From Defluviitaleaceae bacterium (GTDB taxonomy: Bacteria > Bacillota > Clostridia > Lachnospirales > WRAX01), in NCBI GenBank assembly GCA_009785595.1, contig WQVZ01000017.1, forward strand, positions 1 through 32,663: a stretch of DNA of 32,663 bases. The letters are read 5' to 3'. Under the pieces are notes generated by a model. The model did not search any database. It saw only the letters and a list, made by a program, of their open reading frames with translations, and was not told where the DNA came from. Position numbers and translations under genes: made by a program. Below are positions 3,328 through 32,663 of the stretch, piece by piece (the stretch's first letter is position 1; every line of letters begins with the position of its first letter).

Positions 3328-4058
3328 GCGTCCCTCTTTTCCGCCAAAATCAGGTATTCTACATTGCCGTTTTGGCCTGTAATGGGCGATTGATCGATGT
3401 TTGTTGCGGCGAAACCATTATCTGCCAGAGCGTCGCGAATTCTTTTGACAGCCTTGTCGCGGGCGGCTTGACTGCGCACAACGCCCTTTTTATCAAGCTT
3501 TGTCCGGCCGCATTCAAATTGGGGTTTAACAAGAAACACCGCTTTGCCGCCGGCCTCCAATAATTCGGATACTTTTGGTATCACCAATGTTAAAGAAATA
3601 AACGAAAGGTCAGTGGCGATAAAATCCGGCTGGTAAGGCAAATCATCCAAAATTATGCCCCTAATGTCGCGACCCTCTATTGATATAACCCGTGGGTCAT
3701 GATGCAGCGTTTGAGCCAGTTGGCCATGCCCGTTATCCAGGGCAATAACACATTTAGCACCTCGTTGTAACATACAATCAGTAAATCCACCGGTGGATGC
3801 GCCTATGTCCAAGCAACGCAACCCTTGTAGATTAATATGAAATTTTTCCAGTGCGTGGGCTAATTTTAGACCGCCGCGTGATACAAATGGCAGCTTTCCA
3901 ACCTCTGAAGCAATTTTACTGGTCTCGGCGATTTTGGCCCCCGGTTTTGTGATTATTTCGCCGTCAACACTGCATTTTCCGGCCAAAATTATTTCTTTGG
4001 CGTATTCCCGCGATACATCCAGTTGCTTGCAAACCATAATATCAAATCGCTTCATCAT
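3324..4058 (-). CDS. tlyA: TlyA-family rRNA 2'-O-methyltransferase (hemolysin A family)
   Basis: Two-domain RNA methyltransferase of 244 residues. An N-terminal S4 RNA-binding domain spans about residues 1-60 (LDVSREYAKEIILAGKCSVD). An FtsJ-like Rossmann fold follows, with CLDIGASTGGFTDCMLQRGA as SAM-binding motif I and FIATDLSFISL as the catalytic-core strand. In characterised relatives it methylates ribose in 16S and/or 23S rRNA; the hemolysin name is historical. The first ATG overlaps the end of dxs by 17 bases and has GGAGA nine bases upstream. A second ATG directly after it is possible. Confidence 0.95.
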   Translation of the reverse strand: MMKRFDIMVCKQLDVSREYAKEIILAGKCSVDGEIITKPGAKIAETSKIASEVGKLPFVSRGGLKLAHALEKFHINLQGLRCLDIGASTGGFTDCMLQRGAKCVIALDNGHGQLAQTLHHDPRVISIEGRDIRGIILDDLPYQPDFIATDLSFISLTLVIPKVSELLEAGGKAVFLVKPQFECGRTKLDKKGVVRSQAARDKAVKRIRDALADNGFAATNIDQSPITGQNGNVEYLILAEKRDA

Positions 4059-5916
4059 GACTTACGCTCTCCGCAATTTTTGTATAAATACTGTCTGCGT
4101 CCAATCCCACCAAAGCCAACAGTTCATCCCTGGTGCCAATGGGCGGAAAATCGTCGTCAATGGCGAAAGGATGTAGGCGCGGCGTGGTGATGCCTTTATT
4201 ACGCAAGGCGGCGTGCAGGCTTTGGCCGAACCCGCCCGCGTGTACGTTCTCTTCTATTGTAAATATATGGGAATACTTTGCCAAATCCGTCACCATTCCT
4301 ATATCCAACGGCTTTATAAAGCGCGGATTAATAAGTGTCGGCGCATACCCATCGGCACAAAGCCGCTCACATACCAGATTAGCCGCGTCCACCATAGAAC
4401 CCACTGCAATTATGGCAATCTTTTCGCCGTTTACCAAGGTTTCGCTTTCACCAAGGCGTATCGGGGAAGGGTTGCTCGATATAAAACTACTTGCAGTATC
4501 CTTTGGATAACGTATGGCCACAGGGCCGTTATGGTGCATAGCAAAGTCCAGCATAGCGCCAAATTCGGCAGCATTTGCCGGGGCGAGCACCGTTAAATTA
4601 GGCATATGCGTCAAATAGCTAAGGTCAAAAATACCTTGATGGGTCTCTCCGTCGCCGGGCACAACGCCGGCTCTATCTAGCATAAATACAACGGGCAGTT
4701 TCTGTATACATACATCATGAAGGATTTGATCATAAGCCCGCTGTAAAAAGGTGGAATATATCGCTACAACAGGTCTCAAGCCGCCTTTGGCCAGGCCCGC
4801 CGCAAAGGTGACAGCATGACCCTCTGCAATGCCAACATCAAAAAACCGGTGGGGGAAATTCTTTTTAAAGCTAGCCAGGCCGCAGCCTGTCGGCATCGAG
4901 GCCGTTATAGCCACGATTTTGTCGTTGGCCTGCCCGAGCTCTACAATTTTGTTGGCAAAAACATCGGTGTATGTAGCTTTGGCGGCAGGTTTGACGGCTC
5001 CGGTCGCCGCGTCAAAAGGCCCAATGCCGTGAAATTTCGCTGGCTGTCGTTCTGCCGGGACATACCCCATGCCCTTTTTGGTGCGCACATGCACCAGCAC
5101 CGGCCCTTTAATTTCCTTAACATTTTGCATAACACCAACTAATTGTTCCAAATTATGGCCGTCAACCGGGCCGTAGTATTTAAAACCCAGCTCCTGAAAC
5201 AGCACGCCTGGTATCAATAGATATTTGAGGTGCGTTTTGGTTTTTTCTAAAAAACTACCAGTACCTTTGCCTACAATGGGTATATTTTGCAAAAATCCTC
5301 GCACGGCCCCTTTTACATTGATGTATGAGGGTGCCGAGCGCAGGTCATTGAGATAGCGCGACAGTGCCCCAACATTTTCGGATATAGACATCTGGTTGTC
5401 GTTCAAAATAACCGTTAAGTCCGTATCGCTACGGCCAATATTGTTAAGCCCCTCCAGGGCCAGGCCGCTGGTGAGAGACCCATCACCAATAACCGCAACC
5501 ACCTTATTGCGCTGGCCCAGCAGATCACGACTGATAGCCAAGCCGTGTGCGGCCGACAATGATGTGGAGCTATGGCCCACATCAAAGACATCATGGGGGC
5601 TTTCGGTGGATTTGGTAAAGCCGCTAAGACCTCCGAATTGACGTAAAGTATCAAATTCATCACGTCGCCCAGTCAATATTTTGTGAGGATATGACTGGTG
5701 CCCCACGTCCCACAAAATTTTATCATCAGGGGAATTTAAACAGTAATGCAAAGCCAAAGTAAGCTCCACCACACCCAAATTAGACGCCAGATGTCCCCCT
5801 GTTTTAGACACAGAGTTTACTAAAAATTCCCTAATTTCTTCCGCTACAACGGGCAGCTGTGGCATTTGCAGCCGCTTTAAATCCCGTGGCGAATTTATTT
5901 TATCTAAATAGCGCAT
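4042..5916 (-). CDS. dxs: 1-deoxy-D-xylulose-5-phosphate synthase
   Basis: Thiamin-diphosphate enzyme that condenses pyruvate with glyceraldehyde 3-phosphate, the first step of the MEP isoprenoid pathway. About 624 residues, normal length. The ThDP motif runs from GDGS (about 144-147) to NDNQ (172). The transketolase pyrimidine-binding domain (YSTFLQRAYDQILHDV, DRAGVVPGDGETHQG) and the C-terminal transketolase domain follow. I chose the ATG giving MRYLDKINSPRDL, which has GAGG five bases upstream; an upstream in-frame start at 5955 would add 13 unconserved residues and run into the methyltransferase gene. IspA in the same operon uses the downstream C5 units. Confidence 0.97.
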   Translation of the reverse strand: MRYLDKINSPRDLKRLQMPQLPVVAEEIREFLVNSVSKTGGHLASNLGVVELTLALHYCLNSPDDKILWDVGHQSYPHKILTGRRDEFDTLRQFGGLSGFTKSTESPHDVFDVGHSSTSLSAAHGLAISRDLLGQRNKVVAVIGDGSLTSGLALEGLNNIGRSDTDLTVILNDNQMSISENVGALSRYLNDLRSAPSYINVKGAVRGFLQNIPIVGKGTGSFLEKTKTHLKYLLIPGVLFQELGFKYYGPVDGHNLEQLVGVMQNVKEIKGPVLVHVRTKKGMGYVPAERQPAKFHGIGPFDAATGAVKPAAKATYTDVFANKIVELGQANDKIVAITASMPTGCGLASFKKNFPHRFFDVGIAEGHAVTFAAGLAKGGLRPVVAIYSTFLQRAYDQILHDVCIQKLPVVFMLDRAGVVPGDGETHQGIFDLSYLTHMPNLTVLAPANAAEFGAMLDFAMHHNGPVAIRYPKDTASSFISSNPSPIRLGESETLVNGEKIAIIAVGSMVDAANLVCERLCADGYAPTLINPRFIKPLDIGMVTDLAKYSHIFTIEENVHAGGFGQSLHAALRNKGITTPRLHPFAIDDDFPPIGTRDELLALVGLDADSIYTKIAESVSHDEAI

Positions 5917-15074: not shown

Positions 15075-16045
15075 AACAACTGCCTCCATTTGTCACAAGC
15101 AGTCTTGATGACATCTATCACCTCGCGCCGCCCTTCCTCTAAGGGAGCCGCAAACTGGGCCGCCGCCGCAAATTTGTGGCCGCCGCCGCCAAATTGCCCG
15201 GCAATGGCGTTTACATCCACACCGCTTGAGCGCAAACTAACCTTGATCATACCATTGCTGCGCTGGGTAAAAAACGCGGCAACGCTGATGCCTTCCACAT
15301 TAAGCACATACTCCACAATGCCATCCAGGTCGGTAATTTTTGCCCCCACGGCGGCCATTTCTTCCGGAGAGACAAAAGTGTGGGCAATGGGATATCCTTC
15401 CGTGTATCGTATATTTTGGATTGCCTTGGCAAAAATCTCCGTTTCTATCCTGGTACGGGCATGGATAGTCTCCCGCTGTATACGGCCAAAATCAATACCC
15501 GCAGACATTAACGCCCCGGCGATTTCCATTGTTCTGGGCGTAGTGCCGCTATGGCGAAAAGCTCCGGTGTCGGTGACGATACCCGCATACAGGGCCGCGG
15601 CAATTTCTTTACCGATGGCCACATGGGGCTGAATTATCTCGTAAATAACCTGGCAGGTAGAGGATGCTGATGTATCCACATAGTTATGGTTGGCGAAGTT
15701 ATCGTTGCCTACGTGGTGGTCGATGTTGATGGTGACGGCCGGCCGGCCCAACAACCCATCGCGGGCCCAAACCCGGCTTTTGTCGCCGCAATCTACTGCC
15801 ACAAGCACATCAAAATCGGGCAGCGCATCGTCACAGGCAAGCACAAACCGCCTCTCCACCAAAAAATCATATTTAGCCGAAAACCGGTCAAGCATCACCA
15901 TCGGTCGTTTTCCAGCCGCATCAAGAGCCAGGGCCAGCCCAAAGGCCGACCCCAGCGCATCCCCATCAGGTGTAGGATGTGTGACAATTACAATATTATC
16001 GCCGTTTTCAGTTAAGTTACGCCAAGCGTCATGGGCTGAGAGCAT
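15071..16045 (-). CDS. nrnA: DHH/DHHA1 phosphoesterase, nanoRNase/pAp phosphatase
   Basis: Degrades short oligoribonucleotides and 3'-phosphoadenosine 5'-phosphate, and possibly cyclic dinucleotide products. Metal-binding motifs are complete: THPTPDGDALGS, VAVDCGD, NIDHHVGN and the C-terminal GGGHKFAAAAQF of the DHHA1 domain. I set the start at 16045 (MLSAHDAW), where AAGGAG sits seven bases upstream and contains the rbfA stop; a start at 16069 would overlap rbfA and lacks such a site. About 324 residues. Confidence 0.95.
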   Translation of the reverse strand: MLSAHDAWRNLTENGDNIVIVTHPTPDGDALGSAFGLALALDAAGKRPMVMLDRFSAKYDFLVERRFVLACDDALPDFDVLVAVDCGDKSRVWARDGLLGRPAVTINIDHHVGNDNFANHNYVDTSASSTCQVIYEIIQPHVAIGKEIAAALYAGIVTDTGAFRHSGTTPRTMEIAGALMSAGIDFGRIQRETIHARTRIETEIFAKAIQNIRYTEGYPIAHTFVSPEEMAAVGAKITDLDGIVEYVLNVEGISVAAFFTQRSNGMIKVSLRSSGVDVNAIAGQFGGGGHKFAAAAQFAAPLEEGRREVIDVIKTACDKWRQLL

Positions 16046-20624: not shown

Positions 20625-21918
20625 CACCTTCTGCTTCTGTCGCCTCGTCATCGTACTCATCATCGTATTCGTCGTCATAGTCTTCATCGTACTCATCTTC
20701 ATCGTACTCATCATCGTATTCGTCGTCATAGTCTTCATCGTACTCATCTTCATCGTACTCATCATCGTATTCGTAATATTCTGTCAAAGCTTCGGCGTAT
20801 CCGGCCTCATCTACCACGGCCGCGGGCTCTTCTTTATCGGCATCAAAATAATCTTCGCTGTTAAGGAAATTCTCCTCAATAGCCTTGCTGTAGCTTTTAA
20901 TGTCAATACGATATCCCGTAAGCTTGGCGGCCAGACGGGCGTTTTGCCCTTCACGGCCAATGGCTAATGACAGTTGGTTATCAGGCACCACAATTCTGGC
21001 GGCCTTGCCGCCTTCTTCTATACGCACCGCCAACACAATGGCCGGGCTAAGGGCCTGGGCAATAAACTCCTTGGGGTTTTCGCTATGAGATATTATGTCA
21101 ATTTTTTCGCCGTTAAGCTCGTCAACAATGGTGTTAACCCTGTTGCCGCCCGCACCAACGCAAGAACCCACTGGGTCTACATTGCTGTTTTGGCTGGACA
21201 CGGCAATTTTGGTGCGAAAACCCGCCTCGCGGGCCACGGCCTTAATAGCCACCGTGCCGTCTGATACCTCCGGCACTTCTTGTTCAAAAAGCCTGGCCAC
21301 AAGCTCTGGATGAGACCGGGACACAGGTATCATTGGCCCGCTGCGGCCGCTATCACGCACATCCAGCACCAGCACCTTAAGCCGTTGGTTAAAATAATAC
21401 TCCTCGCCAGGTATTTGCTCCGCCGGGGGCAGCACAAGTTCCGTCGCGCCCACGGTAATAAAGACATTGCGACGCTCTATACGCTCCACAACGCCGGTCA
21501 AAAGCTTATATTCCCGGTCTTTAAATTCGTTAAGTACCTTGTTGCGCTCTGCTTCTCTAAATTTTTGCACAACCACCTGTTTTGCGGTTTGCGCAGAAAT
21601 ACGGCCAAAGTCCCGTGGTGTTACCACAATATCGGCCACATCGCCCAATTGATATTCCAAACTGATCTCCTTGGCAGCATCCAAAGAAATCTCCAAAGCA
21701 TCGTCTTCCACTGCCTCCACCACTGTTTTTTGGGCAAAAACATTAACAGCACCGGTATCGCGGCAAATGGCCACACGAATGTTTTGGCTTGTTCCAAAAT
21801 TTTTCTTGCACGCAGAGATAAGCGAGGATTCTATTGCTTCAAAGAGGGTTTCTTTATCGATGCCTTTCTCTTTCTCAATAAGGCCTATTGTGTCGATAAG
21901 CTCGCTATTTGCAGGCAT
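20614..21918 (-). CDS. nusA: Transcription termination/antitermination factor NusA with acidic Tyr-rich tail
   Basis: RNA-polymerase-binding factor of 434 residues. Domains in order: N-terminal RNAP-binding domain (1 to about 125); S1 domain (about 135-200, [24 protein letters not shown]); KH1 ([20 protein letters not shown]); KH2 ([23 protein letters not shown], ending near 345). The tail 380-422 is unusual: 43 residues of Asp, Glu and Tyr only (12 Tyr), made of 17-residue repeats. Firmicutes NusA usually ends soon after KH2. The ATG has AAAGGTG upstream. It is the first conserved gene of the operon; rimP, normally before it, is missing. Confidence 0.96.
20651..20774 (-). repeat. 51-bp tandem repeat in the nusA tail
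   Basis: The unit starting at 20651 recurs perfectly at 20702 and partially at 20753 (about 2.4 copies). Each 51-bp unit encodes 17 residues of the [17 protein letters not shown] type, so copy-number change keeps the frame. Confidence 0.92.
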
Positions 21919-21948: not shown

Positions 21949-22015
21949 ATACCAACTTGCAATCTATACTAATGCCAATCAGTTCTTTGGCATCATTTAG
22001 AATACAAGTTGGTAT
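21949..22015. repeat. 67-base nested inverted repeat in the nusA leader (MITE-like)
   Basis: Outer arms ATACCAACTTG (21949-21959) and CAAGTTGGTAT (22005-22015) are perfect 11-base inverted repeats. Inner arms ATGCCAA (21972-21978) and TTGGCAT (21987-21993) form a second stem. It could be a small palindromic mobile element or an RNA structure in the nusA leader. I see no clear target duplication. ATACCAAyTTGC also occurs at about 24793. Confidence 0.75.
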
Positions 22016-22037
22016 CACAGATTCCCTATAAATTTAA

Positions 22038-22483: not shown

Positions 22484-22486
22484 ATT

Positions 22487-22530
22487 AGACCTGTTCGGAG
22501 ACCTTGCTGAACCAATTTCCGAACGGGTCT
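22487..22530 (+). other. 13-bp stem-loop at the 5' end of the response-regulator mRNA
   Basis: AGACCTGTTCGGA (22487-22499) pairs with TCCGAACGGGTCT (22518-22530), with one U-G pair and an 18-base loop. No U-run follows, so it is not an intrinsic terminator. It may stabilise the mRNA, or the inverted repeat may be a protein-binding operator at the start site. Confidence 0.6.
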
Positions 22531-22571
22531 ATTACTCTGCTAAATTAAAACATACAAAGGGAAGATTTGCC

Positions 22572-23252
22572 ATGCCAAAAATCCTTATAATAGACGACAG
22601 CCCGGAAATACTCAACCTTAACACAGCACATCTGATAAAAGAGGGGTTTGATGTCGCCACGGCCGATACGGGCGCCAAGGCTATAGCCCGGCTTAAAGAA
22701 GGTCGGTATGACTGTATTATACTGGACATTATGCTACCGGATACAGATGGTTTTGCCGTATGTAAGGCCGCACGCGATCTAACCAGCGCGCCAATAATCT
22801 TTTTGTCTTGTTTGGATTCTCCCGATGATAAAGTAAAAGGCCTTATGATAGGCGGGGACGATTATATGACAAAGCCCTATAGTCTAAAGGAATTGGCGGC
22901 CCGTATCCATGTACATCTAAGGCGCGAACAACCCAAAAACCTGCTTGCTTTTGGGTCGGCTTCCATAGACAAAGACAACAGAATAATACACACGCCGGAT
23001 AAATACGTGCTTTTATCCCAAAAGGAATTTGAGCTGTTTATGTTTCTGTTCGAAAACCTCGGCCGGGTTTTTTCAAAAGAAGAGATATACAGCACTCTTT
23101 GGCAGTCAGGCAGCTCTGAAATAGGCACCGTTGCGGTACATATCTTAAAATTGCGGCGCAAGCTTGGTTTTGCCGCGCCATACGTTGGTACAATAGAAAC
23201 AAGTGACGGCGGATATTTTCTTGCACGTAACGCGGAGGGTGGTCTTCCATGA
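22572..23252 (+). CDS. OmpR/PhoB-family response regulator
   Basis: 226 residues. Receiver domain 1-115 with acidic pocket DD at 8-9, phospho-acceptor Asp52 (IILDIMLPDTDG) and Lys101 (TKPYSLKEL). C-terminal winged helix (about 125-222) with LLSQKEFELFMFLFENLGRVFSKEEIY and VAVHILKLRRKL. The ATG has AAAGGGAAG seven bases upstream, and the stop overlaps the kinase start by four bases. It should act as a dimeric DNA-binding regulator phosphorylated by its partner. Possible targets are its own operon and the giant surface-protein gene 340 bases beyond the kinase; that is inference from position. Confidence 0.96.
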   Translation: MPKILIIDDSPEILNLNTAHLIKEGFDVATADTGAKAIARLKEGRYDCIILDIMLPDTDGFAVCKAARDLTSAPIIFLSCLDSPDDKVKGLMIGGDDYMTKPYSLKELAARIHVHLRREQPKNLLAFGSASIDKDNRIIHTPDKYVLLSQKEFELFMFLFENLGRVFSKEEIYSTLWQSGSSEIGTVAVHILKLRRKLGFAAPYVGTIETSDGGYFLARNAEGGLP

Positions 23253-24676
23253 ATTTTGGCTTTGAAACCTTAAGAACAATTGCAATCCTCATACACGTGC
23301 TGTCTCTGCTGACGGTAGCAGTCATGGGCTATTTTGTCATTACCCGCCTTAAAAGCATAAAGCGGGAATACTTCATCCTGATTGCATTTTTCACTTATAT
23401 ATCCTTGCTGGGTATCATATTCGAAATGATGGCTAACACAGTAGACGGCGGCCTGCTTGGCTGGCGGTTGGTGTACCTGGGCGGCATGATGCTTGCGCCG
23501 CTGTTTTTAATGTTTGTTCAGCATTATTGCGAAATACATTTGCCAAAAATCATTAACATTCTGGCCTTTGCTACAGCCCTTGGGATAATAGCCCTTACGT
23601 GGACAACCCATTTGCATAATTTGATTCATGAATCAGCCCAGCTTTATCCCGGCGGCAGCCCCGGCCCCGGCCTTACGGTTTGGGGGGCAACCAACGGCAT
23701 ACTATGGCCTGTGGTGGTTATACACCCCAGTGTTTGTATGATACTGGTCTTTTATATTCTGTATAAAAAAAGCAAAACCGCAAGCAAAACCCAACGAAAA
23801 AGACTGTGGGTATTGGTTGCTTTTGCGGCCCCTCCCGGTATTTCCCAGGTGCTTACATTCTTTGACCTTTCTATCATAGGTATGCATTGGAACGGCATAT
23901 TGGCCCCCATCGCCCTTGTTGTTTTATATTTTGGCCTGTCCCGTTATGACCTTATGGAAAACGAAGAAACCATACGCGCCCAAAGCTGGCTGCGGGATAT
24001 GATAGCCAATATATCACACGATATCAAAACACCCCTTACCGTCCTAAGCGCCAATATCGAAAAACTCCTTGAAACCAGCCCCAACGACCCAGAATATCCA
24101 AGAGACATACAAATTGCATACAACAAAAACCTTGACCTGCAACGACTCATCCAAAACCTTATAGAAGTAACCCGCATAGAAGCCGCCCAAAACCTTTACA
24201 AGCCCGAATGGGTGCCCCTTAGTTCTGTCCTCGTTGGCGTACAAAAAAAGCATGGAGATTATTTGGAAAGCATGGGGCTATATTTGGACATAAGCGGCAA
24301 TGCAGGCGAAGAAGAGCCTCATATATATACTGACCCCATAAAACTATGGAGCGTTTTTGACAATATTATTTACAATGCCGCAAGACACACCGAACACGGC
24401 GGCATAAGCATCACGGCCAAAACCGCAAAAGACAGCACAACAATTGCCATAACAGACACCGGCTGCGGCATAGCAGAAAAACACCTGCCCCATATTTTTG
24501 ATCAATTTTACAAAACAGAGGCCGACAGAGGCAGCAAGGCCGGAGAAAGCGGATTGGGGTTGTATATTGTTAAAAGCATCATGGAAGGCTGCGGCGGCAC
24601 GGTGGGTATGCAATCCCAAGAAAACATCGGCACCACCATTTTGCTTACCTTCAAGGCAATGCCGCAAAATGTTTAA
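23249..24676 (+). CDS. Sensor histidine kinase with N-terminal 7TM domain
   Basis: 475 residues. About seven TM helices occupy residues 8-232, matching the 7TM histidine-kinase N-terminal type, with an extracytoplasmic loop around 120-155 (HNLIHESAQLYPGGSPGPG). H box ANISHDIKTPL has His257; N box DNIIYNAARH at 371-380; G1 DTGCGIAEKHLPHIF and G2 GESGLGLYIVKSIM follow. All catalytic motifs are intact. There is no PAS or HAMP domain, so the signal is probably sensed in or near the membrane. Overlap with the regulator (ATGA) marks an operon. Confidence 0.95.
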   Translation: MNFGFETLRTIAILIHVLSLLTVAVMGYFVITRLKSIKREYFILIAFFTYISLLGIIFEMMANTVDGGLLGWRLVYLGGMMLAPLFLMFVQHYCEIHLPKIINILAFATALGIIALTWTTHLHNLIHESAQLYPGGSPGPGLTVWGATNGILWPVVVIHPSVCMILVFYILYKKSKTASKTQRKRLWVLVAFAAPPGISQVLTFFDLSIIGMHWNGILAPIALVVLYFGLSRYDLMENEETIRAQSWLRDMIANISHDIKTPLTVLSANIEKLLETSPNDPEYPRDIQIAYNKNLDLQRLIQNLIEVTRIEAAQNLYKPEWVPLSSVLVGVQKKHGDYLESMGLYLDISGNAGEEEPHIYTDPIKLWSVFDNIIYNAARHTEHGGISITAKTAKDSTTIAITDTGCGIAEKHLPHIFDQFYKTEADRGSKAGESGLGLYIVKSIMEGCGGTVGMQSQENIGTTILLTFKAMPQNV

Positions 24677-24731
24677 CAAGCGGTAAAATGCCACACCCCA
24701 AAGCCACGAAAAGAAAATTTTGTAAAAACCC

Positions 24732-24760
24732 TTGAAAAACAAATCGGCCTATGTTATCAT
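24732..24760 (+). promoter_or_regulatory. Promoter of the sORF/giant-protein unit
   Basis: TTGAAA (24732-24737) and TATCAT (24755-24760), spacer 17, with TGT directly before the -10. Start expected near 24767, giving a leader of about 145 bases to the small ORF and 250 bases to the giant gene. Confidence 0.7.
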
Positions 24761-24776
24761 GAATTATCATAAACTT

Positions 24777-24871
24777 TATAGCAACAACCGCTATACCAAT
24801 TTGCGAATGGGCGAGAGCCCATTCGCATTTGTCGTTTATGGGGCGATTAACAAATTTGTTAATCGACAAAT
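24777..24871 (+). other. Structured 5' leader with three stem-loops
   Basis: Stem 1: TATAGC (24777-24782) with GCTATA (24790-24795). Stem 2: TGCGAATGGGC (24802-24812), tetraloop GAGA, perfect complement at 24817-24827. Stem 3: a perfect 22-base palindrome (24844-24865, half-site CGATTAACAAA), which can extend by ATTTGT (24827-24832) with ACAAAT (24866-24871). No long U-run follows, so simple termination is unlikely. I recognise no known riboswitch class. The palindrome could also be a DNA operator. Confidence 0.7.
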
Positions 24872-24911
24872 CTCATGACTACTAAACACTTCGAAGAGGA
24901 GGTGAAAAACC

Positions 24912-24974
24912 ATGACAAACCTGACAACAAAAGAAATGATGGCCATTGCGACAACATCACGCAGACGAGAATAA
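24912..24974 (+). CDS. 20-residue leader or small peptide
   Basis: MTNLTTKEMMAIATTSRRRE, 20 codons then TAA. It is preceded by AGGAGGTG, a perfect eight-base anti-16S match, seven bases before the ATG, and lies between the structured leader and the giant gene (42 bases to its ATG, same frame, separated by stops). It could be a leader peptide controlling the downstream gene or a small functional peptide. No signal peptide; the end is basic. Confidence 0.55.
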   Translation: MTNLTTKEMMAIATTSRRRE

Positions 24975-25016
24975 CACCGCCGCCACAGCCAAAATTTAAA
25001 GTAAGGAGGAACGAGT

Positions 25017-28000
25017 ATGAAAAGCAGACTAATTAAAAAATGCATTGCATATCTGCTGGCGTTTATAATGACGCTGGGCATCGCGCCCACGCCCGTCCTT
25101 GCAGACATGCGCCAAACCATCCGCAACACGCCCGAGCAAAACCAAACCATACTGGATATGCTACAAAACTTTGACGGCAGCTTGGAACAAGCCGACGAAC
25201 TTTTGCGTAGCTTTGGCCTTTTGGATGCCGACGGCAACCTTAACATCAACCAGCGCATTTACCTAAACGGCATATATTATACTCTCGACGAAATTACCGA
25301 GATTATAAACCGCCGCGGCACCGACCTATCCCAAATAGCCTGGGTAGACGGCACGCCCGTCGCCCTGGGTGATTTAAAAACAATGATAGAAATAGAAGAA
25401 GAGATAGCGCGCATAAGGGATATTTTGCTTTCTGACATACCCTTTACCGCCGAACACGCACCATATCTGGAAGAACTGCTTAGACAAATGGCCACCACAG
25501 GCATTAATTTTAACGCGGCAGCACCGCCTGTGACCCAAAATATTCCTGCGGTCAGCCTTAACCGCGAAAGCTTGCGGTTAAATTTTGTCAACACCGGAAG
25601 CTATGTATCCGGCGGAGGTTATCGTCACGAGGCAAGCACAAGGCGCGATGAAGCGCCGCTGCTTTTAAGCCGTGGCAGTGGCATAGACCCAACCGAAACC
25701 ATTAGCTTTCAGGTCAGGATGATTGGCGGGCCCCGGCAAACATACTGGTGGCAAAGCCCCAGCTCTGTGTTTGCCGAAATAGAACACAGAAATATGGACA
25801 TATGCTATTTCGGAAACCCATTTGCCGGCACTTCCAATGAAAACAGATCGCACATAGAATTTACCGCCGCTTCGGGCACAGGTGCACCACGCGCAGATGG
25901 CGTGGAGATGATATGGCCCGGCAGCGTAGAGACCCTGCGTATGGATTATGTTTTAAGCATACTATGGGAAGATGCGCGTTTGTGGCGCGGTGCCCGGGCA
26001 TATTATATCGAGCTTTTTGACGCCGATGGTTTTGTCTTTCCCAATGGGCTGGACCGCATCACCATACCTGTCTATATCGACTTCACCGAAACACAATTTA
26101 GCACCACATACAACAGCAACACGGTTAGGTCTACATCATTTTATGGCGAGGACAGGTATTTTCCCGAATGGCCTTTGCCGCCGATGACATCACCGAACAT
26201 GGAAAATGCGCGCCGCATAACGCATGGCGATAATGCCCATGCCGTGATTGAACTAGCAACCGTTATAGAATTACTTTATGACGGAGGCTTTATACGTCAT
26301 GAGGGAATCGGCAGCATTTTTGGCTGGAACTGGACAGGAAGAACTAATTATGAAATAGCAAATGCCGGATCACGTGAATTTGTAGTGCCTGCGTTTGAGG
26401 GGCTTTCATTTCCTGGAGTAAGTGCCACAGAAGTTTATTTTCCGCCCGACAGCTGGTTTTTATATGACGGTATGTTTCCGTCTCATTCTTTTTACCATAG
26501 CACGACTACTCAAGCCAGACCTCTACCAGAAATAACCGTCCACGCAAGAGGCGTGGACAAAATGCCCACCGCGTTAAGTCTTGGGGAAATCAGACCCATC
26601 AATGTACACCATACACCCTTCGCCGGCAGATATTCTGATACTAATAACCCGCCTGTTATTGCCCGCACTTCTTCCCACACAATGAGGATGTTAAACGATG
26701 GCACCCGTCCCTATGTGCGCAATGTCACCATACCCACGGGAGAATTTTATCCCGGACAGATTGTGCCCATTATGGTGGAATTCTCCAGAGCTGTAAACGG
26801 TATTGATGCCAGACTGGAAATTAACGGTGGTACAGGCGGCATCGTAATAAATGACGAGCAGTTTTTTGGCCCGACATTAAACGCGGTTAGGCATCCGCTT
26901 GGTGTAGGCAATCAATATTCAAGAGTACATATGTTTGAATATGTGGTGGGCCCAACCGATGGCTCGACATTCCGTGTTACCGAAATTTTTGGCGCGCGTG
27001 ATATGTTCGGAAACGAAATGCTTGCCGAAGATGGTGTAAGCCAGGGTGCATGGAGAAACAATGTAGACACCCATATCGAGGCTAATATACGCCTGCGCAG
27101 CTTTTTAATGGCTGATGCGGTGCAGGGTATCTCTCTTGACAGGCATATTGTTACAAACATATGTGTATTGACGGGCGAGGCGGATATTGCTGTTGCGTTG
27201 GATGTAAACCAGCATCCAACGTACAGAACCTTTATTGGCCTTCTTGGTCAGGATGTTCACGGAAACTTTCCGGCGCCTTTCCATCTTAGGGTGACAAATG
27301 TGGCAGATCCCAACAGCGTTACGCTTTTTCCGCTGTATCTTTATGCGGAAGACGGCGGCAATCATTTGTATGTATATGGCACAATAAGCGGTATGCCCCT
27401 TGCGGTTAACCAAACCGACGATGTGTATATTGTAGAGATTATTGCCATAGACCCGCGGCTGCCGGAAGAGGAACGCAGAGAAAGTGTTGTTTTTGGCACA
27501 TATACAAGTTTTTTGGTAGAGTATCGGTATTTTCCGGCTATAATCATCCCGGAAAGCGTGCGCACCATCATAGCCGACCGAAACCAACCTGCCCAAGTGC
27601 GGTGGTTTACACGGCCGGGGGCTTTTGCGCCGGAAGCTGGCGGAGACTTTACAATTGAGATATTTAGAGGTTTTCATGATATAGACCCCCTTGATGCGGC
27701 TTTTGGCACCATGCAGCCTATATACACCAGCTTTGCGGATCTTGACAGCCTGCATTATACAGTGCCGGAAAATATCTTTGACACCTTGTCCTTTAACGAT
27801 GTACCTACATATACCGCCAGAGTATCCGCAATGTATCAAGGCAATGAAGCGGCGGCCATTGCCCATGTGGTGGTTGTGCCCGTGCGGGCCAGGGTAAACA
27901 TCCCACGCCCTGCAAACACATCTATGCTTGACACCCAAGCTTATACTGTCAATTGGACCATTGCGCCCTTTATGGAGGGAAGCACCCAGGCCGAGCTGAC

Positions 28001-31000
28001 AATACACAGGGTTTCTACCATAAATGGCCAGGATGTAACCGAATTGGTACACGCTGCCGACATAAGCAATAGCGGATATGGCTCTTTTGCCCTTGATTTT
28101 GCCCGCGTAAACGGCCTGCGCAATTTGTATATGATAAACATACAGGCGCGCAATGTGGACAGAGAAACAGACCCGGGCAATCCCTTTTATTCTCCATGGA
28201 ACACAGACTCGCTTGTGTTGCGGGTGTACAATGCAGATGCGCTGAGCCTTTCTTACAGGGACAGAACGCCTATGCCTAACACCATAACATTAAGCAATAT
28301 ACCAACCGTACAGGGCTTAACCTTGCAGGATGTAAGCGGACAAACGCAAATGACCACCCCGGAAATATTGCGTCTGCGGGAAAACCTTGCACTGATGGAG
28401 TTTGTTGGGATAAATTTTGATGACCATGCCTGGAATATGCTCCACGACAGAATAGACTGGGACACCAGTGACGATTCGGTTGTTTCGGTTAATTTCAGAC
28501 AGGGTGCTATATACGAAAATCTATCAAGATTTGGGGACATGTTGTTTTTGCCGGAGACTGTGATGGGCCTTTCCGGGTTGCAAGATGGCTATGCCGTTGT
28601 AACTGCAACACATGCCGCAACAGGCATGAGCGACAGTGTCACCGTAAATGTAGAAACCATGCGTGACCAACTGTTTATCATACAGGCAAGCCCGGCCATA
28701 CGCACGTCTTTGCGATATATGCCAGTGGGCAGCAATGTGTACAGGCAGGTATGGACAAACGACACCGGCACCATTGTGCTGTACGAACCCGAAGGCATTG
28801 CCGGCAATATTTATATGCGTGGCGAAAATGACGAGGGTGTTTGGTTGGGTACATTGCATCTTGACAATGTGCTAACAGGCGAGCGTGATTGGACACTTCT
28901 GCAACTTTATCCGTTAAACACGGTGTTTATGCGCCTTACAGCCCGCACGGATATTTTCCTTAGACGTCCGGACGGCACACCCCTTACAGGCAATGTAACG
29001 GTGCGCGGCGGCGTGTATATAAACGGCGGTTATGCCCAGGACGCTTTGCTGGGAACATCTCCCAACTCGGTGGATATGGGCAGCGGCAAAAGCCCACGCA
29101 CATTTACCATAGGCCCCGGCGGCAGATTGTCTATTTATATGGACTCTACCCAGTTTTGGTCAGAAGAACTTGGCCACAACAGCAACCGCCAGCTTATCCC
29201 CGCTGACCGCCTGTTGTATATCTTTGAAATTTCAGAAATAGCCGGAGATACTTTGCGGCCCGTGCTGGTTTATGTAAACGGCAGCATGAGCCCGAGGCAA
29301 ATAGTGCGTGGTGGAGAAAGCATTGTTGGCCTGGAACACGCCGTCGGTGGCAAAGGACCTTTTGTAGCCGCCCAGCGTGTAGAGTATCCTGGTTTTAGAA
29401 GACCTTCGGCCGATGTGCTTCATTTTACCGGAGAAATTGGGCCGGACGAAACCTATAGACATATAGAACTTGTAACAACCGCACTTATTTGGGGTACGGA
29501 GTTTGAAGGCGACATGGGCGGCCACAGAATTGACATAACCGACGAATTCGGGTTTATGCCAACCGCCCAAACCAGCTACAACGACTCCTATCCCTTCTCC
29601 AGCATACCTCTTGTGCGCAGTAGGCTGGAGCTTAGCGAAGACAGTATGACCGCTTCTGGCTGGGTTACGCCGGCAACAAGAGTTGGGCTGCGCTCACGCC
29701 TTAGCTATGAGCAAACCGTAATAAGCGACATACCCACCGGCTTTAGGGTGCTGGATATGAACACCTTCCCGCATATACAAGAAAACCCCGATGTATTAAA
29801 CGCCATTGATGATCTGATAGAAAGCATACAAACCCCTGGGCCAAGCGGCAGCAGCGGTATGCAAACCAGCCGCAACAGCTTTATGCGGCGTGCGCTTTCT
29901 ATAATGGGCGACTTTGACAGCGGCCAGGGCGACCCTCCCTTTAGAATAGCCATAACCCCAACCGAAAACAACCCGGCGGTCTTTAACGCCCTTATATGGG
30001 TCGGCCACGAAGGCGTGGAAATGAAGGATATCGAATTTGATGATTCCGGTTTCAGTTGGAATTATAATTTTCTTGAAAGCGACGTACCCAACGTTGCATC
30101 AGACATAAAGGAATTTTTTGTGGGTGACAGAAAAAACCGCGCAAACACCTTTAGTGACATTAGCGACGCCCTAAGTGGTGCTAAAAAATCAAAAGGCCCG
30201 GATATTTCTGTAACTTTTACAGGCTTTTATACCGCCGAAATACGCTTTAACTTCGATACCGGAGCATGGGAGATATTCACCACCGGCGGCGGATTTACCG
30301 CGGGCATAGGCCTGGAATTTAAATGGAGCATGAGCAAGCTTGTTGGCCCTGTTCCTGTTGCGGTCAGCTTAACTCTTGGCGGCGCGCTTATGTTCGAATT
30401 TGAGACCGCCGTCCGCCACTCCGAAATACCAGGTTACGAATGGCACCCGGATGTGGTCGCCAGCAGAGTAAACGACTATCTTACCACCCTACGCATAAAT
30501 GCCTATGTAAAGGCCTTTGCGGGCATTGGGTTTGATAAATCCGTTGTTGCTCTTAAAGTGGGCATTTTTGGTGAACTAACCATCGACAGTGTAAACAGAT
30601 GGCTTAGCCGCACATATCTTGCAGACGAAAGCCAACGCCAAATAAACGGTCAGGGCCTTAGGGTAACAGGGGAAGCTGGCATCAGATTTGTAGCGCGGCT
30701 GTTGTTCCTCAGCTTTACCCACACCTTTGTTTCTGTGGGCTTTACCTACGACCGTGTGTTTAACCAATGGAATTATATCAACGATTATTGGAACAACACA
30801 GGAACCGGGCTTCCTCGCGGCATTAACCCGGCCGCCGGTGCCATGCCCATGTCACAAGGGCTGGAGCTGATAGAATCTACCGCCACATTGGTAAGCAGGG
30901 ATTATCTGCACCAGTTTGCCCGCAGCTGGGGCTCTCCCGCAGGAAGGTTTATGCCCCTTGTCCTGGACAACCCAAATAGGCTGGAACAGCTACAAAGCAA

Positions 31001-32663
31001 TGCCTATCCCGAATCCAGACCGGTTATCACCGACGATGGACAGCTGCTGTTATACCTTTTTGACCAAAACAGCGACGACATTAGGGACACACGGGTATTT
31101 GCCACCGCCATGAACGCAAGCGGCGCATATCCCGAAGGCAGAGAAATTGCCGCACCAGCGGGCTTTACCGGCTATGGCGACATGCTTTTAAGGCTTGCCG
31201 GCAACCAAAACTTCGCGGCGGCGGCCTGGGTACGTATGAGCACATATTTGCCCTATACGAACGCAGGCGACGCGGTTAGCATCGAGCAGCAATCACTGCT
31301 GATGAACGCAACAGAAGTAGTGGCTTCTATATATTCAAACGGAAGCTGGGCTTCTACACGCATCACCGACAGCCAAACCCCCAACCTTGCCCCTGTGGTA
31401 GCCACCAACGGCACAAACAGAGCCATAGTTGCATGGCGCAGTGTATTTGCCAGCGATAACGAAAATATTCTGGACTTTGACGTACAAGACCAAATTTTGT
31501 ACAGAATATTTGAAAACGGCACCTGGGGCGACACAATTGTGCTATACAACGGCACATCCGGCTCTGTAATGGGCATAGAGGCCGCAATGCTGCCTGATGG
31601 CACGGCAATGGTTGCCTATACCCTTGACCGTAGCCACGGTAGCGGAGACGCCGCATATTTTGAAATGGCATACAGCATCGTAGCGGCAGATGGCCAACCC
31701 GAAGCTTCTTGGATCATCACCAGCGACGATAGCATTAACGAAAACCCCCAAGTAGCCGCCGTTAATTTTGGCACCACGGCCACTCCGGATTATCGCTTCA
31801 TCCTCGGTTGGCACAGTGTTTATGAAGGGCTTGGAGACATACGCCTGGTGGCAATTAACAGCCAGGGCATAGTATCAAACAGCTTTATCGATGCCATAAG
31901 CCACGTAGCCGCCAATGTAAGCATCGCAGGCAACTTCCGCTTTGCCTCCAACGGAACCCTGGGTGGTTTGTCCATTGTTTGGGCAGAAACCTACGACCTT
32001 ATTGGCGAAAGCGATGCTCTGCTTGCTACTAACGATGTTCTGCGCGCTGTTAAATTTACCGAAAATGGTATTTCCGCACCATTGGAAGTGGCACAAATGC
32101 CGCCGCGTACCCAAATAGACCATTTTAATGTGTATGCGGTAAGCCCGACGGAAGTACGTGCGGTGATACAGGCAACAGAATACAAGGAAATTGACCTTGA
32201 TGACCCTACAACTTTCATCGCAACATACTTTGATGATTTTGACTACTACACAAACGAGTATGTTCGTCATTATGTATTCGTGCCTAATTACGAAACAAAG
32301 CTATTCACTGCCACGGCACATTACCGCAACAGTGCAGAACTGTTGTCTGTTTTGTCAGAGCATTCTAATGTGGCCCCAAACAGCTATGTTTCTGTTAGAT
32401 TCGACCTGTTTAACGCAGGTTATGGTGTCATCAACCGCGCCGATATCCAGCTGGGCAGCCAGACATTTACGTTCAATAATCTGGAAATTATGCCCAACGA
32501 ATCCCTTGGTCTTATTGCTCATTACCTTGTTGGCAACACTGTCGAAAACCTGCCATACACCGTGACGGCATACTTTGGCAATACCGCCGCAACGACCCTT
32601 ATGGGAACAAAAATGCTGGACTTTCCGGATGTAGGTATCTCCTCCATAGAGGTAATCCGCGAA
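25017..32663 (+). CDS. Giant secreted surface protein, C-terminus beyond the window
   Basis: Open frame of 2549 codons with no stop before the right edge. ATG with GGAGG seven bases upstream. Signal peptide 1-29 (KKCIAYLLAFIMTLGIAPTPVLA). A helical segment (about 35-150) includes EIEEEIARIRDILL. Several beta-rich Ig-like stretches follow: about 566-680 (IPTGEFYPGQIVPIMVEFSRAV), about 965-1090, and a Big_2-like one at about 1147-1213 (DWDTSDDSVVSV ... DSVTVNVE). Residues about 1730-1950 hold Gly-rich alternating beta strands. About 1980-2390 has repeated blades (APVVATNGTNRAIVAWRS, ENPQVAAVNFG) suggesting a beta-propeller, and a CARDB-like stretch comes near the edge. Likely an adhesin or cell-surface protein; anchor not visible. 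Confidence 0.85.
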   Translation, partial: MKSRLIKKCIAYLLAFIMTLGIAPTPVLADMRQTIRNTPEQNQTILDMLQNFDGSLEQADELLRSFGLLDADGNLNINQRIYLNGIYYTLDEITEIINRRGTDLSQIAWVDGTPVALGDLKTMIEIEEEIARIRDILLSDIPFTAEHAPYLEELLRQMATTGINFNAAAPPVTQNIPAVSLNRESLRLNFVNTGSYVSGGGYRHEASTRRDEAPLLLSRGSGIDPTETISFQVRMIGGPRQTYWWQSPSSVFAEIEHRNMDICYFGNPFAGTSNENRSHIEFTAASGTGAPRADGVEMIWPGSVETLRMDYVLSILWEDARLWRGARAYYIELFDADGFVFPNGLDRITIPVYIDFTETQFSTTYNSNTVRSTSFYGEDRYFPEWPLPPMTSPNMENARRITHGDNAHAVIELATVIELLYDGGFIRHEGIGSIFGWNWTGRTNYEIANAGSREFVVPAFEGLSFPGVSATEVYFPPDSWFLYDGMFPSHSFYHSTTTQARPLPEITVHARGVDKMPTALSLGEIRPINVHHTPFAGRYSDTNNPPVIARTSSHTMRMLNDGTRPYVRNVTIPTGEFYPGQIVPIMVEFSRAVNGIDARLEINGGTGGIVINDEQFFGPTLNAVRHPLGVGNQYSRVHMFEYVVGPTDGSTFRVTEIFGARDMFGNEMLAEDGVSQGAWRNNVDTHIEANIRLRSFLMADAVQGISLDRHIVTNICVLTGEADIAVALDVNQHPTYRTFIGLLGQDVHGNFPAPFHLRVTNVADPNSVTLFPLYLYAEDGGNHLYVYGTISGMPLAVNQTDDVYIVEIIAIDPRLPEEERRESVVFGTYTSFLVEYRYFPAIIIPESVRTIIADRNQPAQVRWFTRPGAFAPEAGGDFTIEIFRGFHDIDPLDAAFGTMQPIYTSFADLDSLHYTVPENIFDTLSFNDVPTYTARVSAMYQGNEAAAIAHVVVVPVRARVNIPRPANTSMLDTQAYTVNWTIAPFMEGSTQAELTIHRVSTINGQDVTELVHAADISNSGYGSFALDFARVNGLRNLYMINIQARNVDRETDPGNPFYSPWNTDSLVLRVYNADALSLSYRDRTPMPNTITLSNIPTVQGLTLQDVSGQTQMTTPEILRLRENLALMEFVGINFDDHAWNMLHDRIDWDTSDDSVVSVNFRQGAIYENLSRFGDMLFLPETVMGLSGLQDGYAVVTATHAATGMSDSVTVNVETMRDQLFIIQASPAIRTSLRYMPVGSNVYRQVWTNDTGTIVLYEPEGIAGNIYMRGENDEGVWLGTLHLDNVLTGERDWTLLQLYPLNTVFMRLTARTDIFLRRPDGTPLTGNVTVRGGVYINGGYAQDALLGTSPNSVDMGSGKSPRTFTIGPGGRLSIYMDSTQFWSEELGHNSNRQLIPADRLLYIFEISEIAGDTLRPVLVYVNGSMSPRQIVRGGESIVGLEHAVGGKGPFVAAQRVEYPGFRRPSADVLHFTGEIGPDETYRHIELVTTALIWGTEFEGDMGGHRIDITDEFGFMPTAQTSYNDSYPFSSIPLVRSRLELSEDSMTASGWVTPATRVGLRSRLSYEQTVISDIPTGFRVLDMNTFPHIQENPDVLNAIDDLIESIQTPGPSGSSGMQTSRNSFMRRALSIMGDFDSGQGDPPFRIAITPTENNPAVFNALIWVGHEGVEMKDIEFDDSGFSWNYNFLESDVPNVASDIKEFFVGDRKNRANTFSDISDALSGAKKSKGPDISVTFTGFYTAEIRFNFDTGAWEIFTTGGGFTAGIGLEFKWSMSKLVGPVPVAVSLTLGGALMFEFETAVRHSEIPGYEWHPDVVASRVNDYLTTLRINAYVKAFAGIGFDKSVVALKVGIFGELTIDSVNRWLSRTYLADESQRQINGQGLRVTGEAGIRFVARLLFLSFTHTFVSVGFTYDRVFNQWNYINDYWNNTGTGLPRGINPAAGAMPMSQGLELIESTATLVSRDYLHQFARSWGSPAGRFMPLVLDNPNRLEQLQSNAYPESRPVITDDGQLLLYLFDQNSDDIRDTRVFATAMNASGAYPEGREIAAPAGFTGYGDMLLRLAGNQNFAAAAWVRMSTYLPYTNAGDAVSIEQQSLLMNATEVVASIYSNGSWASTRITDSQTPNLAPVVATNGTNRAIVAWRSVFASDNENILDFDVQDQILYRIFENGTWGDTIVLYNGTSGSVMGIEAAMLPDGTAMVAYTLDRSHGSGDAAYFEMAYSIVAADGQPEASWIITSDDSINENPQVAAVNFGTTATPDYRFILGWHSVYEGLGDIRLVAINSQGIVSNSFIDAISHVAANVSIAGNFRFASNGTLGGLSIVWAETYDLIGESDALLATNDVLRAVKFTENGISAPLEVAQMPPRTQIDHFNVYAVSPTEVRAVIQATEYKEIDLDDPTTFIATYFDDFDYYTNEYVRHYVFVPNYETKLFTATAHYRNSAELLSVLSEHSNVAPNSYVSVRFDLFNAGYGVINRADIQLGSQTFTFNNLEIMPNESLGLIAHYLVGNTVENLPYTVTAYFGNTAATTLMGTKMLDFPDVGISSIEVIRE

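Follow-up and report, generated by a model that had tools for sequence, protein, structure and literature searches.

The window analyzed here, a 32,663-nucleotide (nt) stretch of Defluviitaleaceae bacterium DNA, contains an unusually structured leader within the 340 bases that separate the stop of a histidine-kinase gene (24676) from the start of a giant surface-protein gene (25017). The leader structure is real, and it stands out as unusual in this part of the genome. Tentatively, and with a likelihood somewhat short of even, the region may serve as the 5' leader of the mRNA of this giant SLH protein and protect or tune that mRNA, in a manner similar to the aprE leader of Bacillus subtilis. 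This is the simplest reading of the data; a new class of RNA element is not shown. Features described below lie on the plus strand unless stated otherwise.

In the proposed mechanism, transcription would start near 24766, as judged from promoter spacing, and the first 75 nt would form a compact three-way junction, with the 5' end held in its closing stem. A palindrome hairpin would come next, and after it the very strong ribosome-binding site of a 20-codon open reading frame in the leader (ORF1). The most likely task of this arrangement would be to set the lifetime and translation of the approximately 10.6-kb mRNA: the 5' structure would hinder 5'-end-dependent decay (RNase J is encoded in the genome; TIGR00649, 658 bits versus a cut-off of 400), and ribosome loading at the strong leader Shine–Dalgarno (SD) site would add protection. 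With its strongly structured predicted 5' end, its very strong leader SD, and RNase J in the same genome, the region has the build of leaders that prolong mRNA life. Because a message of this length is costly and slow to make, protection by the leader would matter. The above-chance structure, its place between a promoter-like site and the two strongest SD sites, and the RNase J gene are observed, whereas the transcript start, the folding of the RNA in the cell, the protection, and any regulation are the inferred parts of this reading.

The three stems noted in an earlier sequence-only reading, made without database searches, are all present in the sequence. Stem 1 (P2, 24777-24795) consists of 6 bp around a 7-nt loop (TATAGC/GCTATA, 24777-24782 with 24790-24795); its pair probability is 0.8 to 1.0 in all folds, and it is matched by 81 of 5000 shuffles. 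Stem 2 (P3, 24802-24827) has the 11 bp and GAGA loop that had been described. A GNRA loop closed by C-G, such as C-GAGA-G, is an RNA-type tetraloop, which favors RNA as the relevant molecule. Stem 3 (P4, 24844-24865, without a strand of its own) is a perfect 22-nt palindrome, the longest of the window (the next has 14 nt), and as RNA it would form 9 bp with an AAUU loop. No other perfect stem of the window is as long as the palindrome or stem 2, and the leader holds two of the three perfect stem-loops with arms of at least 9 (loop at most 12) found in 32.7 kb. In 30 shuffled windows, the mean number was 0.03 for palindromes of at least 22 nt and 0.13 for stems with arms of at least 11.

A fourth helix, P1, was missed by the sequence-only reading. 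In the minimum-free-energy fold, 24767-24774 pairs with 24834-24841, closing the three-way junction, and P1 begins at the predicted transcript start. This helix is less secure than the others: its seven Watson–Crick pairs were obtained in 61 of 20000 shuffles, and eight pairs including G-U in 900 of 20000. When 24766-24866 is folded alone, the pair probability of P1 is approximately 1 (0.5 for the outermost pair). The fold of 24767-24915 (149 nt) has an energy of -50.6 kcal/mol and a z-score (z) of -6.7, with none of 200 shuffles being as good. The 150-nt stretch at 24751 has z -9.0, the lowest of 868 stretches covering both strands (25 shuffles each).

The best sign that the stems are probably transcribed is the presence of the two strongest SD sites downstream, together with the lack of any comparable promoter-like site between the palindrome and ORF1, the next one being a 9/12 match at 24912. 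The SD of ORF1, AGGAGGTGA (9 nt, 24897-24905), is the longest SD match among the 609 plus-strand ATGs of the window, and that of the giant gene, AAGGAGG (7 nt, 25003-25009), is the second longest. The small ORF reported after the stems is indeed an open frame (24912-24974, 20 amino acids) with an extremely strong SD; its peptide has no relative with E <1 in 37 loci. The good promoter reported ahead of the stems also holds: TTGAAA-17-TATCAT with an extended TG (24732-24760) gives 10 of 12 matches, and a site of equal quality was found in 5 of 2000 dinucleotide-shuffled intergenic regions with the TG and in 94 of 2000 with or without it. Its spacing predicts a transcript start at about 24766-24767. 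A direct repeat, TTATCATGAA/TTATCATAAA, with 10-base spacing lies across the -10 region (24754-24773) and is a candidate site for an OmpR-type regulator.

The position of stem 2 between these signals bears on another explanation, namely that it is an intrinsic terminator of the upstream response regulator–histidine kinase operon or that it attenuates the giant gene. With 11 bp followed by TTTGTCGTTT, the stem is picked up by a loose terminator scan, and this genome often carries long perfect stems, many of which resemble terminators. However, it lies 3' of the promoter-like site and 5' of the two strongest SDs, its T tract is broken (TTTGTCG, versus TTTTCC after the stem past the stop of the giant gene), and the loose scan returned 11 sites versus 5.4 expected. 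Such a function is quite unlikely for this stem.

The predicted fold changes as the RNA lengthens. The palindrome had been described as extendable by an outer stem, and two extensions can indeed be drawn, but they differ in probability: the pairing 24828-24832/24866-24870 has a pair probability of approximately 0, whereas 24836-24843/24871-24878, which includes a 5-nt bulge, reaches approximately 0.4 to 0.9 depending on the folded length. The latter lengthens the palindrome hairpin through its 3' strand (24871-24878), overlaps the 3' strand of P1, and excludes P1. Further downstream, a small predicted hairpin (24887-24904; 24887-24892 with 24899-24904), formed in the folded structures and reflected in the unpaired probabilities, covers most of the SD of ORF1. 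The region could consequently be conceived as an orphan cis-regulatory switch, in which a ligand or protein is recognized by the three-way junction with its GNRA loop, and translation of ORF1 and the giant gene depends on whether P1 or 24836-24843/24871-24878 (plus 24828-24835 with the ORF1 start) forms. The mutually exclusive folds, the second of which pairs the ORF1 start codon, and the far-above-chance structure agree with this idea, although the SD is paired in both folds. When the 5' domain was kept fixed and the rest was shuffled, P1 was broken as much in 161 of 500 cases, and both effects appeared in 76 of 500. An exchange this common in shuffles is no better than chance, and the two-state behavior was therefore rejected as evidence. 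Moreover, no second copy was found in 41 genomes or 36 other loci, while known riboswitch classes recur widely. None of 4227 Rfam families reached its gathering score in the window, and an E-value scan of 24650-25100 gave a best E of 2.3, which agrees with the statement of the sequence-only reading that the leader matches no known riboswitch. A switch of this kind is considered rather unlikely.

The giant gene, on whose message the leader would act, is represented in the window by its 5' part (25017-32663, 2549 codons), and its frame carries on in contig C57, with an exact overlap over the final 41 residues of the window part. The whole product has about 3512 amino acids and ends in three SLH domains; its window part matches no Pfam or NCBIfam family. 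A first contig-level search with the N-terminus found no match. Relatives of the gene occur in 2 of 16 genomes of the family, matches to the protein core in 5 of 392 genomes of the order, and matches to the N-terminal 300 amino acids in 4 of 96 genomes, the genome studied here being included in each count. In named genomes, a profile search yielded 35 loci. Most belong to Oscillospiraceae and other Clostridia, and some to Paenibacillaceae or to metagenome-assembled genomes labeled Bifidobacteriaceae. A start could be placed in 29 of the 35, leaving out L081, L089, L090, L091, L094, and L103. For 18 of these 29, the genes 5' of the giant gene were tested against Pfam; six are LuxR-type, one is a GHKL kinase, and two carry other helix-turn-helix domains, so that a transcription-regulator or sensor domain is present in 9 of the 18. 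The LuxR-type and GHKL genes belong to L072, L073, L075, L076, L080, L085, and L093, and small unrelated genes often intervene. With 35 loci and this share of regulatory neighbors, the gene family is useful in itself.

Three observations concern the leaders of these relatives. In genome G002, a long (GCAA)n run follows directly after a TTGACA promoter-like site, 5' of the homologous giant gene (L087, approximately 3800-3880), and could be phase-variable. Two rumen relatives (L088 and L101) have a common hairpin with a T run about 100 nt 5' of the giant gene; its core (GACGGGC..GCGCTCG) is kept and its stem differs, and it is possibly a conserved terminator or attenuator. A cobalamin riboswitch guessed in the leader of G027 received no support from Rfam.

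Directly 5' of the giant gene, both the window and G002 encode a two-component system. In the window, it comprises an OmpR-type response regulator (22572-23252) and a histidine kinase with a HisKA_7TM sensor (23249-24676). The two response regulators are 31% identical and non-orthologous, and the alignment of the histidine kinases is confined to their C-terminal, catalytic part. The closest relative of the window regulator (57%) is found in G006, on a contig without the giant gene.

This arrangement is relevant to a DNA-level explanation, in which the palindrome is an operator 3' of the start, used for a roadblock or for repression by a dimeric regulator (the neighboring response regulator or some other protein), with the hairpins as a by-product. 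A perfect palindrome of this length is rarely expected, and a 22-nt stretch over its left half (24835-24856) matches the G002 leader at 18 of 22 positions (E 0.009), where a two-component system likewise lies directly upstream. Since this match covers half of the palindrome and is not palindromic in G002, it indicates a bound site no less than a hairpin. The motif derived from it, however, scores best in G002, which defined it, and is at chance level, absent, or weak in the other 28 homologues; the neighboring regulators are not orthologous, and their kinases align only in part. No second site occurs in the window at up to 3 mismatches, and elsewhere in the genome the half-site is found with one mismatch, never perfect. 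OmpR-type regulators mostly bind direct repeats, and an operator would leave stems 1 and 2 unexplained. The suggestion of the sequence-only reading that the palindrome serves the adjacent response regulator is further weakened by its position approximately 78-99 nt 3' of the predicted start. Overall, a DNA operator is an unlikely explanation.

Comparative searches bear on all of these explanations. A DNA search of 96 genomes gave matches at E <=0.01 in five, namely the genome itself and four others, in which the matches span 21 to 35 nt and all lie outside the stems. Within the genome, no second copy of the leader was found beyond short matches, the best being 18 nt at C7, inside an open frame. 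A mobile or repeated element was rejected on the grounds that the genome holds no second leader copy and that 95 other genomes contain no stem matches. The leader has no match in phage records, and viral contigs searched for stem 2 and for the palindrome as exact patterns gave zero hits. A literature search confined to open-licence PMC papers retrieved no account of this leader, nor of any structured leader of an S-layer gene in these bacteria, which is no proof of absence.

Several of the results weigh against a protective or tuning leader. None of the 29 start-placed homologues shares the leader, and a single-sequence covariance model, which is an insensitive tool, matched only the window itself among 41 genomes and among 37 sources. 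The structure was not recovered upstream of similar genes, where the sequence-only reading had proposed to look for it, and no homologous leader was found in which covariation could be seen. Only 6 of the 29 homologues have a stretch with z <=-4.5 within 450 nt upstream; the low-z stretches of L075, L076, and L080 look like terminators of the upstream gene, and L101 has a tandem hairpin array of its own. P1 is AT-rich, and folds that reach ORF1 swap it for another stem. Most of the ORF1 SD is taken up by base pairs in the predicted fold, which would weaken protection by ribosomes. The minus strand of the 24751 stretch also has z -7.0, as expected with long perfect stems, so energy alone cannot single out the RNA strand. 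The broader proposal of a regulatory RNA element is supported in part: a structured leader with a GNRA loop, located 3' of a promoter-like site and 5' of the two strongest SDs, fits it, but no Rfam family and no homologous leader was found.

Hairpins are abundant in this genome, and the leader stems could be members of an intergenic hairpin class (lineage-specific, selfish or structural) that does nothing specific for the giant gene. A census of 454,532 sampled bases, from which two short loci (L131 and L132) were left out, counted 33 perfect stems with arms of at least 11, versus 1 in one shuffle, and arrays of 4-5 hairpins stand 5' of two other SLH genes, on C16 and C54. These are two of the six SLH genes with readable upstream DNA, and arrays are also found between convergent genes. 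These arrays, however, share a GTTTAC-type loop (TTTA, TAAA, TTAA, or TTCA) that is absent from the leader, whose loops are GAGA and AATT, and the leader stems are accordingly not assigned to the array class. The leader stems also lack a second copy, and the C54 array, as read by eye, lies 5' of a promoter-like stretch and not 3' of it. Membership in such a class is improbable.

The arrays themselves comprise 2 to 5 intergenic hairpins with different stems and similar loops (GTTTAC/GTAAAC type), at G000:C16:12653-12778 (L129:1651-1780), G000:C54:2450-2551 (L130), and G000:C2:17407-17484 (L134). An 18-base probe for one array stem found six places in the genome and none in 20 relatives. On both sides of one gene on G000:C1 (L133:3921-4086 and 4608-4780), two triplets of very long perfect hairpins with arms of 20 to 34 and 3-nt loops (e.g., GCAAAGC, GCGAAGC) are either real or an assembly artefact. 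A hairpin at 22486-22531, 5' of the response regulator gene, and another just past the giant-gene stop on C57 (L040) have similar outer arms (AGACCTGTTCG...) and bracket the locus as a pair. Elsewhere in the window, an inverted repeat, ATACCAACTTG...CAAGTTGGTAT, lies 5' of nusA (21949-22017; the minus-strand stretch at 21901 has z -6.7), and the minus strand of 15826-15975, within an open frame, has the second lowest z of the window (-8.0).

If the protective-leader reading is true, control of mRNA life by a 5' structure and a strong SD extends to giant S-layer-type genes of uncultured Clostridia. Compared with the riboswitches and leaders of Rfam, the region likewise has several helices in a leader and pairings close to an SD that exclude one another, but it scores below the gathering thresholds, belongs to no sequence family, and shows switching not above chance. 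The STAB-SD of Bacillus thuringiensis cry3A mRNA, which blocks RNase J1 (PMC4113751), is likewise an extra SD-type site in a leader, and its host also has RNase J. It differs in being an SD-like site without a role in initiation, whereas here a predicted start, an ATG with a 20-codon ORF, follows at the normal distance of 9 nt, and the predicted fold pairs the SD. Stability of the aprE mRNA requires both a 5' stem-loop and the SD of its leader (PMC11805744). Compared with aprE, the structure here is much larger, with a three-way junction and a palindrome hairpin, the strong SD serves a separate 20-amino-acid ORF, and the helix corresponding to the 5'-terminal stem-loop, P1, begins at a predicted start and vanishes in longer folds. 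The likeness to aprE lies in the combination of a stable structure at the (here predicted) 5' end, a strong leader SD, here a 9-nt match, and an exported-protein gene, in a genome that encodes RNase J.
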